Assembly: GCA_947474755.1 (NCBI GenBank)
Contig: CANJJE010000003.1
Location: 124,001 to 188,000, forward strand
From: Burkholderiales bacterium
GTDB lineage: Bacteria > Pseudomonadota > Gammaproteobacteria > Burkholderiales > Burkholderiaceae_C
Direction of reading: 5' to 3'
Length of the DNA: 64,000 nt
The translations under genes were made by a program, and so were the position numbers. Under the pieces are notes generated by a model, which saw only the letters and a list, made by a program, of their open reading frames with translations, made no database searches and had not been told where the DNA came from. Shown here one piece after another: positions 38,232 through 42,652 of the stretch; positions within the stretch are counted from its first letter, which is position 1; each line of letters opens with the position of its first letter.

Positions 38232-39317
38232 TCATGTCAACACCAGCCCTTCCAGTTCATCGGCGACGCGCGATGCGGCTTTCGGCCGGGCCAGAGCGCG
38301 CGCCTTTGTCGCCATCGCCAGCAGCGACTCGCGGGTCAGACCGGCCAGCATGTCTGCCAGATGCCGCGGCGTCAGCTCGCCTTGAGGCACTTGCAGCGCT
38401 GCGCCATGCGAGGCCATCCACTGCGCGTTGTCGCGCTGGTGCGAGGTGGTGCTGACCACCAGCGGCACCAGCACGCTTGCAACCCCGGCGGCGCACAGTT
38501 CGCTGACGGTGATTGCGCCCGCGCGGCAGACGATCACGTCGCACTCGGCCAGCCGCTGCGCCATGTTGTCTATGAAGGGCAGCACCTCGGCCTGCACCGA
38601 GGCCTGCGTGTAGTCGGCCTGCACCGTCGCCGCGTGCGCCGCGCCGGTCTGGTGGATGACCTGTGGCCGCTGCGGGTCTGCCATCAGCGCCAGCGCCTGA
38701 GGCACGCAACGGTTCAGCACCGAGGCCCCGAGGCTGCCGCCGACGACCAGCAGCCGCAACGGACCGCTGCGACCCGCGAAACGTGTCGAGGGTGCGGGCA
38801 GCGCCTCGATCTCGGCACGCACCGGGTTGCCGGTGACGACACCGCGTCGCGTGTCGCGTGCAGCCGGGCCGTCGAAACCAAAGGCAACGCGATCAGCGAA
38901 CGGCAGCAGGGATCGGTTGCTCACCAGCAGCGCAGCGTCGGCATTCACCAGCATCAGTGGCCGGCGAAGCACGGCGGCCATCAACCCCGCCGGGAAGCAC
39001 AGGTAGCCTCCCATGCCGAGCACGGCGTGCGCACGGCGCCGACGAATGATGGCCGCGCAGGTCCAGAAAGCGGCCAGCAATCGAAAACCACCCGCCAAGG
39101 TGTGCAGCCAGCCCTTGCCACGCACGCCGGTGAAGGCCACGGTGTCGAGCGCAATGTCATGCGGTGGCACCAGCCTGTTTTCCATGCCGGTGGTAGTGCC
39201 CAGCCAGCTGACGGTCCAGCCACGCCGCTGCATCTCCTGCGCCACCGCGAGGCCGGGCATGACGTGACCACCGGTGCCGGCGGCGACGACAAGCAGGTGT
39301 TTGCTCTGCTGGGTCAT
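38232..39317 (-). CDS. murG: UDP-GlcNAc:lipid I N-acetylglucosamine transferase MurG
   Basis: A peripheral inner-membrane glycosyltransferase (GT28, GT-B fold) that turns lipid I into lipid II. The 361-residue protein has the N-terminal glycine loop [17 protein letters not shown] and the second-domain [12 protein letters not shown], with the UDP-GlcNAc site [15 protein letters not shown]. The ATG at 39317 is near the edge of the large palindrome that separates it from ftsW. In most relatives ftsW and murG are adjacent, so this gene may depend on read-through of that structure or on its own promoter. Confidence 0.97.
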
Positions 39318-39333
39318 GCATGACCCCTTTGCG

Positions 39334-39744
39334 TTTGTTGCCTTGCGAGGCAGGGTCGCCGTGCGTTGCAGCCCGCCGGGTCTCGGCCCGGCACCCGAGT
39401 AACTTTGGCTTCGCCGAAACCCGTTTTCATTTGCGGGCCCAAATGAAAGTCACCAAAGCAAAGGGCCTGAACACCAGCCCATTTGGCTGTCACGCTTCGG
39501 CTACAAGAGAACGGCAGTGGCTCTGGCACAAGAACTCCCACCGAGGACCTGACTTGCTGGTTGTTCTTGTGGCAGAGCCGTTGAAGGCAACCTTTAGCCG
39601 AAGCGAACCGGCCAAATGGCTGGTGTTCGGGCCCTCTTTTTGGGTTACTTTTTTCTGGGCCAGCAGAAAAAAGTGACTCGCCTGCCGGGGCGAACACCCG
39701 GCGCGGTATCACCCGACGGCGCGGTGCAACGCAAGGCAGCAAAG
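39334..39744. repeat. ~410-bp imperfect palindromic element between ftsW and murG
   Basis: The whole 430-bp gap is one inverted repeat. The outer arms start TTTGTTGCCTTGCG and end CGCAAGGCAGCAAA. They share CGCCGGGT, CGAGTAACTTT/AAGTGACTCG and a GGGCC-GAACACCAGCC-ATTTGGC block in inverted orientation. The inner stem (39494-39535 with 39563-39604) pairs GCTTCGGCTA with TAGCCGAAGC and CACAAGAAC with GTTCTTGTG around a 27-base loop. Each arm also contains its own hairpin (TTTCATTTG/CAAATGAAA and ACTTTTTTCTG/CAGAAAAAAGT). The two ORFs called here are shadows of the repeat. It resembles the dispersed AAGTAACTTT-type palindromes of Burkholderiales. Confidence 0.88.
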
Positions 39745-39747
39745 CCT

Positions 39748-41022
39748 TCATGCCCGCCCCCCCCGCATCAACTGCCGATTCTCGATATCAACCCGCGCCA
39801 CGATGGCCAAGGCAATCATGTTCATCAGGATCGCCGAGCCACCGTAGCTCATCAACGGCAAGGTCAGCCCCTTGGTCGGCAGCACGCCCAGGTTGACGCC
39901 CATGTTGATGAAGGCCTGGCCGCCCATCCACAGCCCGATGCCCTGCGCATACAGGCCGGCGTAGACACGATCGAGCGCGATCGCCTGGCGGCCGATGTAG
40001 AACAGTCGGCGCGACAGCCAGAAGAAGGCAAAGATGACGCAGGCGACGCCGACCAGACCGAGTTCCTCACCGATCACGGCGAGCAGGAAATCGGTGTGGG
40101 CCTCGGGCAGATAGTGCAGCTTCTCGACGCTGGATCCCAGACCCTGGCCGAAGATCTCGCCTCGCCCGAAGGCGATCAGCGAATGGGACAGCTGGTAGGC
40201 CTTGCCCAGCGTGTACTTCTCGTCCCAGGGGTTCAGGTAGGCGAAGATGCGCTCGCGCCGCCAATCGCTCAGCGTGATCATCAGCACGAAGGCGCCGATC
40301 AGCACGGCGGTGATCAGCAGGAACATCCGGCCATTGACACCGCCGAGGAACAGGATGCCCATCGCGATCGTCGCGATGACCAGGAAGGCGCCCATGTCTG
40401 GCTCGGCAAGCAGCAGCAGACCGACAACCGCCACCGCGAAGGCCATGGGCAGCACCGCTTGCCAGAAGTTTTCGCGCGCATCCATCTTGCGGACCATGTA
40501 GCCAGCGGCATACATCGCCATTGCCAGCTTGGCGAGTTCGGACGGCTGGAAGGTCATGAAACCCAACGGCAACCAGCGGCGTGCGCCCTTGACGCCATGG
40601 CCGCTGATGGCCGGCACCAGCACCAGCACCAGAAGAAACAGCGCGGCGACGAAGATCCACGGCGCGGCCGCTTCCCAGACACTGACCGGCACCTGCACGA
40701 CGATCAGTGCCGCCACGCAGGCGATGCACAGCGACAGCACATGGCGGGACAGGAAGTACGTCGGTGTGTAGAAGGAGAAGCGCGGGTTGTCCGACATCGC
40801 GATCGACGCGCTGTAGACCATCACGACGCCCAGGGCCAGCAGCCCCACCACCACGCACAGGAGCGCCTGATCGAAGCCGAGCATGCGCGTCGGACTGCCC
40901 GATTTCACGTTGATCCAGTCGCGCACCGGGACCGCCACGCGATCAGGGGCGCCGCCAGGCCATGAACCCATCACGCGCGCCTTCAGCGCATCGATGCGCA
41001 GGGCCTGCATCAAGCCGCTCAC
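39748..41022 (-). CDS. ftsW: Lipid II polymerase FtsW (SEDS family)
   Basis: A septal peptidoglycan glycosyltransferase working with FtsI. A ~50-residue cytoplasmic N-terminus precedes about ten transmembrane helices. SEDS hallmarks include [34 protein letters not shown] and [16 protein letters not shown]. The start is taken as GTG 41022, which has GGAGGG seven bases upstream; ATG 41010 is the alternative, and the ORF-track start inside murD is rejected. The stop abuts the palindromic element. Confidence 0.95.
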
Positions 41023-41080
41023 AGGACAACCCTCCACTGTGCGCGCTGCGCAATGAACGCCTGGAAGCCGCCCGGCGCGC

Positions 41081-42652
41081 TCATGCCACCACCCCCGCAT
41101 CGGCTGCGATCGCACGTACGGTGTCGACAAAGACGTCGGCGCGGTGGACGTAGTTGTCGAACATGTCGAGACTGGCGCAGGCCGGGCTCAGCAGCACCGC
41201 GTCGCCCGGCAGGGCCTGGGAGAACGACCAGCGCGTCGCTGCTTCGAGCGTGGCGTGGCGCTGCAGCGTCAGCGGGTCGATCGATGCGAGCGCCGCTTCG
41301 ATCAGCGCCGCATCGCGGCCCAGCGTCGCCACCGCACGGGCATGACGACGCACAGGCTCGGTCAGCGGCGAGAAGTCCTGCCCCTTGCCGTCACCGCCCA
41401 GGATCACGACCAGCTTCGACGGCGCTCGATCAGCGCCCAGGCCCTCGAGCGCCGCGACAGTCGCGCCGACATTGGTGCCCTTGCTGTCGTCGTAGGCATC
41501 GATGCCATCGATGGTGGCAACGTGGGCGACCCGATGCGGCTCGCCAGCGTAGTCGCGCAGACCGTGCAGCATCGGCGCCAGTGGGCAGCCGATCGCGGTG
41601 GCCAGCGCCAGCGAGGCCAGCGCATTGGCTGCGTTATGGCGCCCGCGCACGCGCAAGGCGTCGGCCGGCATCAGCCGCTGGATGTGCAGTTCTTCAGGCA
41701 CTATCTCGACCCCGGCACGCACACGCTTGCGCGGGAAACTGTCATCGGCTTCGAGCGCCCGGACCAGCCAGGCGACTCCGTTCTCGGTGATGAACCCGTA
41801 GTCGCCCGGGTGCTGTGGCGCGTCGAGCCCGAAGCGCACGAGGGCACGCTCTGCGACTGCGGATGCCCGGCCTTTCGCATTGCTGCTGGCAGCGGTTGCC
41901 TGCGCTTGCACGGCCTGCGCCAGCGCTTCGACGCGAGCATCGTCGCGGTTGACGATCATCACCGCATCACGGCCCCAGATGCGTGCCTTGGCGGCCGCGT
42001 AGTTCGCCATCGAGCCGTGCCAGTCGAGGTGGTCCTCGGTGATGTTCAGCACCGCTGCCGCATCCGGTTCGAATCCGCGGACGCCATCGAGCTGGAAGCT
42101 GCTGAGCTCGAGTACCCAGACCTGCGGCAAGGCCTCGGGCTCGCCGTCGAGCGCATCGGCCAGCGTCTGCAGCATCGTCGGGCCGATGTTGCCGGCGACT
42201 GCGACATGCTTGCCAGCACGCTCGAGCAGCAGCGCCGTCATCGCGGTGGTCGTGGTCTTGCCATTGGTGCCTGTGATGGCCAGCACCTGCGGCGCATAAG
42301 CGGACTCGGCTTTCAGATCGGCCAGCGCGCGGGCGAACAGATCGAGCTCGCCTTGCACCACGATGCCTTGCTCGATGGCGGAGCAAAGCGGTGCGGCGAT
42401 GCGCGCGTCGGTCGGCGACAGGCCCGGGCTTTTCAACACCAGTTGCACGCCATCGAATGCGGCCGGGTTCAACTCACCCTTCATCAGCAGCGCCTGCGGC
42501 ACCTGCGCGGCCAGTGTCTCGGCCTGCGGCGGCGACTCGCGCGAATCCCAGACACGCACCACCGCGCCGCAGCGCGCGCTCCACCGCGCCATCGCGAGGC
42601 CGGAGTCACCCAGGCCCAGGACCAGCACCGTGAGACCGTGGAGATGCTTCAT
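41081..42652 (-). CDS. murD: UDP-N-acetylmuramoylalanine--D-glutamate ligase
   Basis: Adds D-Glu to UDP-MurNAc-L-Ala. The 523-residue protein is a little longer than the family norm (~440-500) because of insertions in the middle domain, where Ala-rich segments appear. It retains [14 protein letters not shown], the ATP loop [35 protein letters not shown] and [11 protein letters not shown]. It is followed 58 bases later by ftsW and preceded by mraY with 13 bases between. Confidence 0.96.

Follow-up and report, generated by a model that had tools for sequence, protein, structure and literature searches.

Between ftsW and murG, in a bacterial contig of the Burkholderiales, 430 nt separate the ftsW stop from the murG start, and this gap is filled by nested inverted repeats. 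The question is what such a structure is, how it came to lie within an essential operon, and whether it matters for the expression of murG. Within the window, i.e., the whole stretch of 64,000 nucleotides that was analysed, the repeat search returned inverted pairs at 39,425-39,490 and 39,607-39,672 (66 nt, 73%), 39,479-39,545 and 39,553-39,619 (67 nt, 72%), 39,358-39,378 and 39,717-39,737 (86%), and 39,334-39,352 and 39,725-39,743 (84%), together with a separate hairpin formed by 39,644-39,657 and 39,664-39,677 (93%). The element they compose is the sole long palindrome of the window, the next longest being 34 and 24 nt. Its predicted RNA fold amounts to -231.5 kcal/mol on the minus strand, which is the sense strand of ftsW-murG (z -9.2), and to -247.8 kcal/mol on the plus strand (z -15.1), with 0 shuffles equalling either value, while the DNA fold of the element has a z-score of -9.3. 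The sequence-only reading of this locus had described a nested palindrome of about 410 bp, and the inverted pairs, along with fold z-scores far beyond chance, confirm it; the large hairpin which that reading expected from RNA of either strand is likewise supported by the predicted folds. Since elements occupy the same junction in 11 other independently assembled genomes, the palindrome is not an assembly artefact.

Table 1. Positions in the window of the element, its modules and the two flanking genes
Feature	Position	Strand	Basis
murG	38,232-39,317	-	gene call; homologues at 62-92% identity
whole palindromic element, murG-ftsW junction	39,334-39,743		inverted repeats, fold z-scores, homologues at other sites
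outer arm, murG side, site-specific module	39,334-39,372		inverted repeats; flank comparison
GC-rich REP-like hairpin, end type b (GCCGGGTCTCGGCCCGGC)	39,373-39,399		sequence; 46-copy alignment
A/T-rich hairpin TAACTTT...(CATTTG-CGGGCC-CAAATG)...AAAGTCAC, here with additional GGCTTCGCC hairpin	39,400-39,453		sequence; alignment
A-rich tract and GGCC block (CAAAGCAAAGGGCC)	39,454-39,467		sequence; alignment
long inner stem, first arm (GAACACCAGCCCATTTGG...GGCTCTGGCACAAGAAC)	39,468-39,533		inverted repeats; conserved pairing
centre, ~60 nt shorter than in most copies	39,534-39,562		alignment columns 317-377
long inner stem, second arm	39,563-39,629		inverted repeats; conserved pairing
T-rich tract, mirror of the A-rich tract	39,630-39,643		sequence; alignment
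A/T-rich hairpin GTTACTTTTTTCTG-GGCCAG-CAGAAAAAAGTGAC	39,644-39,677		inverted repeats; hairpin pattern scan
GC-rich REP-like hairpin, end type a (GCCGGGGCGAACACCCGGC)	39,680-39,706		46-copy alignment
outer arm, ftsW side	39,707-39,743		inverted repeats
ftsW	39,748-41,130	-	gene call; homologous loci

The element is assembled from modules. Its consensus was derived from 47 aligned copies, 46 of which form alignment A1, and runs from the outside inwards through a GC-rich REP-like hairpin, an A/T-rich GTNACTTT...AAAGTNAC hairpin, an A-rich tract with GGCC and a long stem (CACCAGCCATTTG.../...CAAATGGCTGGTG) to a centre of about 90 nt, after which the mirror image follows. The part common to all copies corresponds to about 39,373-39,706, the outer ~30 nt on each side being site-specific or variable modules, and both the window copy and its counterpart in genome G004 have lost about 60 nt of the centre. 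The GC-rich REP-like hairpin exists in two types, a and b, told apart by their loops; as the two ends are found in all combinations (ba 22, aa 9, ab 8, bb 5), modules have been shuffled relative to the core. The stems of the A/T-rich hairpin are interchangeable too (CATTTG, CTTCTG or TTTCTG), and among the 46 copies these variants change on both sides together, which reflects the swapping of whole stem types and not many independent events. The pairs of the long stem are retained in nearly all of the 46 copies. Members of the family have a GC content of ~60% and a size of 400-650 bp, and the ~400-bp copies, that of the window included, contain no recognisable gene.

The genome to which the window belongs (3.06 Mb, 28 contigs) yielded 33 BLAST pieces of the element. 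It holds seven internal copies (the window copy and six more, the others on contigs C2, C4, C5 and C6) and partial copies at contig ends of C4, C11, C18 and C21, so that the copy number, full or partial, is about 10. The location of the partial copies at contig ends implies that the assembly broke at some of them, and several contigs of this genome and its relatives start in an element, a warning that in MAGs of these bacteria a contig can end within such a sequence. The family is present in all 15 genomes of the genus (this one and 14 others), and outside it only G020 has several matches, with one each in G015 and G017. The signature GTNACTTT(8-24)AAAGTNAC occurs 3-17 times per genus genome and 4 times in G020; the remaining relatives have 0-2 per genome, equal to the 0-2 that the reversed control pattern gives there. 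G020 has almost identical end modules, with one stretch of 44 nt matching the window copy exactly, and a different core, CTCCAGACATT/AATGTCTGGAG being read there in place of CACCAGCCATT/AATGGCTGGTG with complementarity retained. The sequence-only reading had suggested a mobile palindromic element of a dispersed type, and had proposed BLASTN against this genome and other Burkholderiales for copies and empty sites. Both were found, membership in a dispersed palindromic family with the GTAACTTT/AAAGTTAC motif is borne out by them, and since mobility was to be judged by whether other copies exist, it stands. No account of the family was met in the open literature (as distinct from subscription papers), searched for the motif and for REP work in these genera, and the family is apparently undescribed so far.

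Copies have been located at about 13 distinct junctions, several of them common to many species. By gene names that come from sequence recognition and not from a family search, these include purH-ruvC, fliK-fliL, uppP-lolC, the convergent mdoG/potF, polA, kdpC-kdpD, and a nodT-like gene with a phosphoglycerate-mutase-like gene. Most copies directly follow a stop codon, the genes of the pair being codirectional or convergent, with one divergent case (L182). The ftsW-murG junction is occupied in 12 of the 15 genus genomes, with a gap of 403-655 nt where the contig holds both genes. The empty junction measures 5 nt in G003 (TGAGC) and 8 nt in G005, as in many outgroups, where it spans only 2-11 nt, and consists of a bare ATGA overlap in two species. 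In G012 the 88 nt between the genes contain a single CGCCGGGG...CCCGGCG hairpin scar; a deletion between the CCCGGCGG direct repeats present in both end hairpins would account for it. The three species without the element are scattered among occupied ones on a lolC+murG tree, where three changes suffice. The pattern is best read as an ancestral insertion followed by three losses, the alternative being several gains. With 12 of 15 species occupied and the others so read, the element appears to be old at ftsW-murG (genus level), and not a fresh insertion into an essential operon. Elsewhere, purH-ruvC was seen occupied in 8 genomes and empty in 5 (G007 and the clade of G002, G005, G009 and G011), and the partial nested forms at mdoG-potF (148 bp in G014, 220 bp in G001) look like internal deletions. 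CATGA stands on both sides of the ftsW-murG insertion and empty junctions have ATGA once; slippage between the CATGA repeats would restore the empty state. This repeat holds the ftsW stop and the murG start, so that selection could keep it, and the flanks at other sites are too diverged for a target duplication to be read.

The similarity between copies carries two signals. In the main clade, copies at the same site are closer to each other than copies at different sites (0.845 versus 0.806; 0 of 2000 permutations), and between clades this same-site advantage is gone (0.763 versus 0.764). On the other hand, copies within one genome reach a similarity of up to 0.883 in G002 and 0.827 in G010, three G002 copies from three sites form one clade with 100/100 support, and the copy tree also groups copies from different sites within one genome or lineage. 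Same-site similarity within the clade and similarity within genomes thus indicate both inheritance at each site and copying from one site to another, the latter by gene conversion and/or fresh insertion; saturation may contribute to the disappearance of the signal between clades.

Palindromes also adjoin murG in other Burkholderiales. They lie directly upstream of the gene in L077 (655 nt, MFE -523) and L081 (443 nt, z -6.1), and in an Aquabacterium MAG (L070:1-735) a palindrome of at least 672 nt, with an RNA fold of -548 kcal/mol (z -29.8), adjoins murG upstream, the contig ending inside it and ftsW being presumed there. All three have the same structural plan and largely unrelated sequence, and the occupation of one place by such palindromes in three other lineages marks ftsW-murG as a hot spot. 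A scan of 67 outgroup loci comprising several dcw genes found palindromes in 7, five of them just upstream of murG. It might be speculated that a widespread, unnamed Burkholderiales superfamily of giant mosaic palindromes exists, with a conserved plan (REP-like hairpin, A/T-rich hairpin, A-rich tract) and interchangeable cores; its spread would depend on template switching or an unknown enzyme instead of RAYT, and it would home on certain junctions such as ftsW-murG. We put this idea forward tentatively. Other kinds of sequence were met at these loci as well. Duplications of the ftsW 3' end (an NRxLMRGGRA-like tail, stop and murG ribosome-binding site) fill the ftsW-murG gap in L053, L054, L067, L087 and L103; an 80-nt inverted repeat (85%) of the ACAGAGGCACAGAGG type lies between the two genes in a Roseateles MAG (L109:2907-2986); and a Rhizobacter MAG has, downstream of murG, a GTAG REP-type palindrome of ~90 nt whose ends are GTAGGGTGGGC (L047:4102-4192).

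The explanation that best accommodates these observations, to which we assign a probability of roughly 0.8, is that the ftsW-murG gap contains a single member of a mosaic family of palindromic repeats, dispersed and non-coding, with ancestral entry, copying in trans together with gene conversion, and loss by slippage. The element would have entered ftsW-murG in or before the ancestor of the genus, and copying between sites would have relied on a trans-acting transposition activity, now rare or lost, in addition to gene conversion; no transposase or autonomous version of the element was found in the genus genomes and loci examined. Loss may have occurred when replication slipped at short direct repeats, skipping the palindrome. 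Transcription from ftsW into murG would yield a very large RNA hairpin, and the host tolerates the element, probably because murG has its own ribosome-binding site, which lies after it. Fine-tuning of murG would be possible but secondary. As for tolerance of palindromes in general, absence of SbcD was considered as a genus-specific permissive factor and rejected: only 1 of 41 genomes has an SbcD of the E. coli type above the cut-off, and this tolerance is accordingly not special to the genus.

A different proposal would see in the hairpin a cis-regulatory RNA or an attenuator, serving murG or the dcw operon and conserved by selection, which reduces murG in comparison with ftsW either through polarity or as a site for RNase III/E. 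The element's presence in most species, its strong fold with pairing conserved across copies, the GGTCA..ATGACC stem into which, in most occupied genomes of clades A and B, the region of the murG start could fold, and terminator-like matches above chance (4 observed versus 1.0) are all in line with it. However, the same element resides in unrelated junctions, convergent pairs among them, it is absent in three species, many outgroups have a few nucleotides at the junction, and no Rfam family reached its gathering threshold (best matches 19.8 versus 69 and 17.2 versus 42 bits), so we consider this origin highly improbable. A known Rfam RNA is rejected by the same scores, and no sigma-70 promoters were found inside the element. 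The analogy with NEMIS, whose RNA has been proposed as a target of RNase III (PMC2229807), makes an effect on murG, polar or mediated by RNase, plausible. The window also contains a perfect 16-nt palindrome, GGGTCATGCATGACCC, across the murG start codon and ribosome-binding site (39,311-39,326).

How the element moved has been a matter of further alternatives. REPIN- or BIME-type repeats mobilised by a REP-associated tyrosine transposase (RAYT) would share with it the inverted REP-like GC hairpins at both ends, the intergenic sites behind stop codons and the vertical persistence. Yet RAYT Y1_Tnp exceeds the Pfam cut-off in 0 of 15 genus genomes (two matches are sub-threshold) versus 10 of the 10 further genera sampled from this family, none of the element's modules was found in the RAYT-like loci of sister genera, three of which have a different inverted repeat, and the missing GTAG tag, the size and the low copy number point the same way. 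RAYT is consequently rejected as present-day mobiliser, and this system, mostly refuted for the present although a past RAYT is possible, has little chance of being the right account. The repeats that enclose the three sister loci (L302:779-802, L304:727-750 and L307:1081-1108) are unrelated inverted repeats with a GGGGTC core (e.g., TTAATTGGGGTCAGATTCCAATTA) in a TIRYT-like arrangement. A classical MITE, i.e., a deletion derivative of an IS moved in trans via its terminal inverted repeats, would agree with the lack of coding capacity, the inverted ends, the empty sites, the possible CATGA target duplication and the conservation of end modules around a different core in another genus (G020). 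We find it doubtful: the loci examined contained no IS bearing such ends, and the ends are hairpins of two types in all combinations, unlike fixed IS ends. Collections of plasmids, phages and viral contigs gave no match to the element. Finally, the shared sites could stem from independent insertions at hot spots instead of one ancestral insertion per site, as the vanished same-site advantage between clades and the largely unrelated palindromes found at this position in three further lineages would suggest; within the main clade, copies sharing a site are clearly the closer ones, and we hold this to be possible, if rather unlikely.

If the gap is indeed one copy of a dispersed repeat family, a conserved family of very large genomic palindromes persists genus-wide between genes, essential ones included. 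Because orthologous junctions are found occupied, empty or partly deleted, both spread without RAYT and loss become testable by ordinary genetics, and the same laboratory genetics can address whether a hairpin of ~230 kcal/mol in the ftsW-murG message matters for cell-wall gene dosage.

Set against known repeat systems, with REP and REPIN defined according to PMC2817692, PMC8049555 and PMC3733652, the element resembles REP sequences and BIMEs in being an intergenic mosaic of inverted, GC-rich palindromic units in alternating orientation, mostly behind stop codons. It differs from them in that it has no GTAG-tagged REP and the genus no RAYT over the cut-off (the GTAG or CGTC head is missing, the consensus ends being GCGCCGGG...CCCGGC), in forming one long stem of ~400-650 bp, and in its abundance, since about 10 copies in its own genome and 3-17 hairpins per genus genome fall short of the about 100 or more (>100 for BIMEs/REP) of those families. 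REPINs likewise join two inverted REP-like units into one hairpin and persist vertically for long, but while their spacer is short and highly diverse (PMC8049555), the ~300-bp interior of the element is conserved and itself palindromic, and no RAYT accompanies it. With bacterial MITEs (Correia/NEMIS, ERIC, RUP) it shares terminal inverted repeats, a non-coding body with no transposase inside, empty sites and transcripts that would form long stem-loops. The bacterial MITE families that have been reviewed stay below 200 bp, are rich in A+T and usually have TA at their ends (PMC2229807), whereas the element is ~60% GC, measures 400-650 bp and has no known parent IS. The TIRYT/TIRtron class (PMC3733652) also comprises inverted repeats of moderate copy number outside the GTAG class, although here no tyrosine transposase gene is over the cut-off in the genus and the RAYT-like loci of sister genera carry other repeats. 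The REP/REPIN traits looked for (RAYT, GTAG, high copy number) are thus lacking, and the family is best read as REP/MITE-like large mosaic palindromes that work like a BIME, a REPIN or a large MITE.
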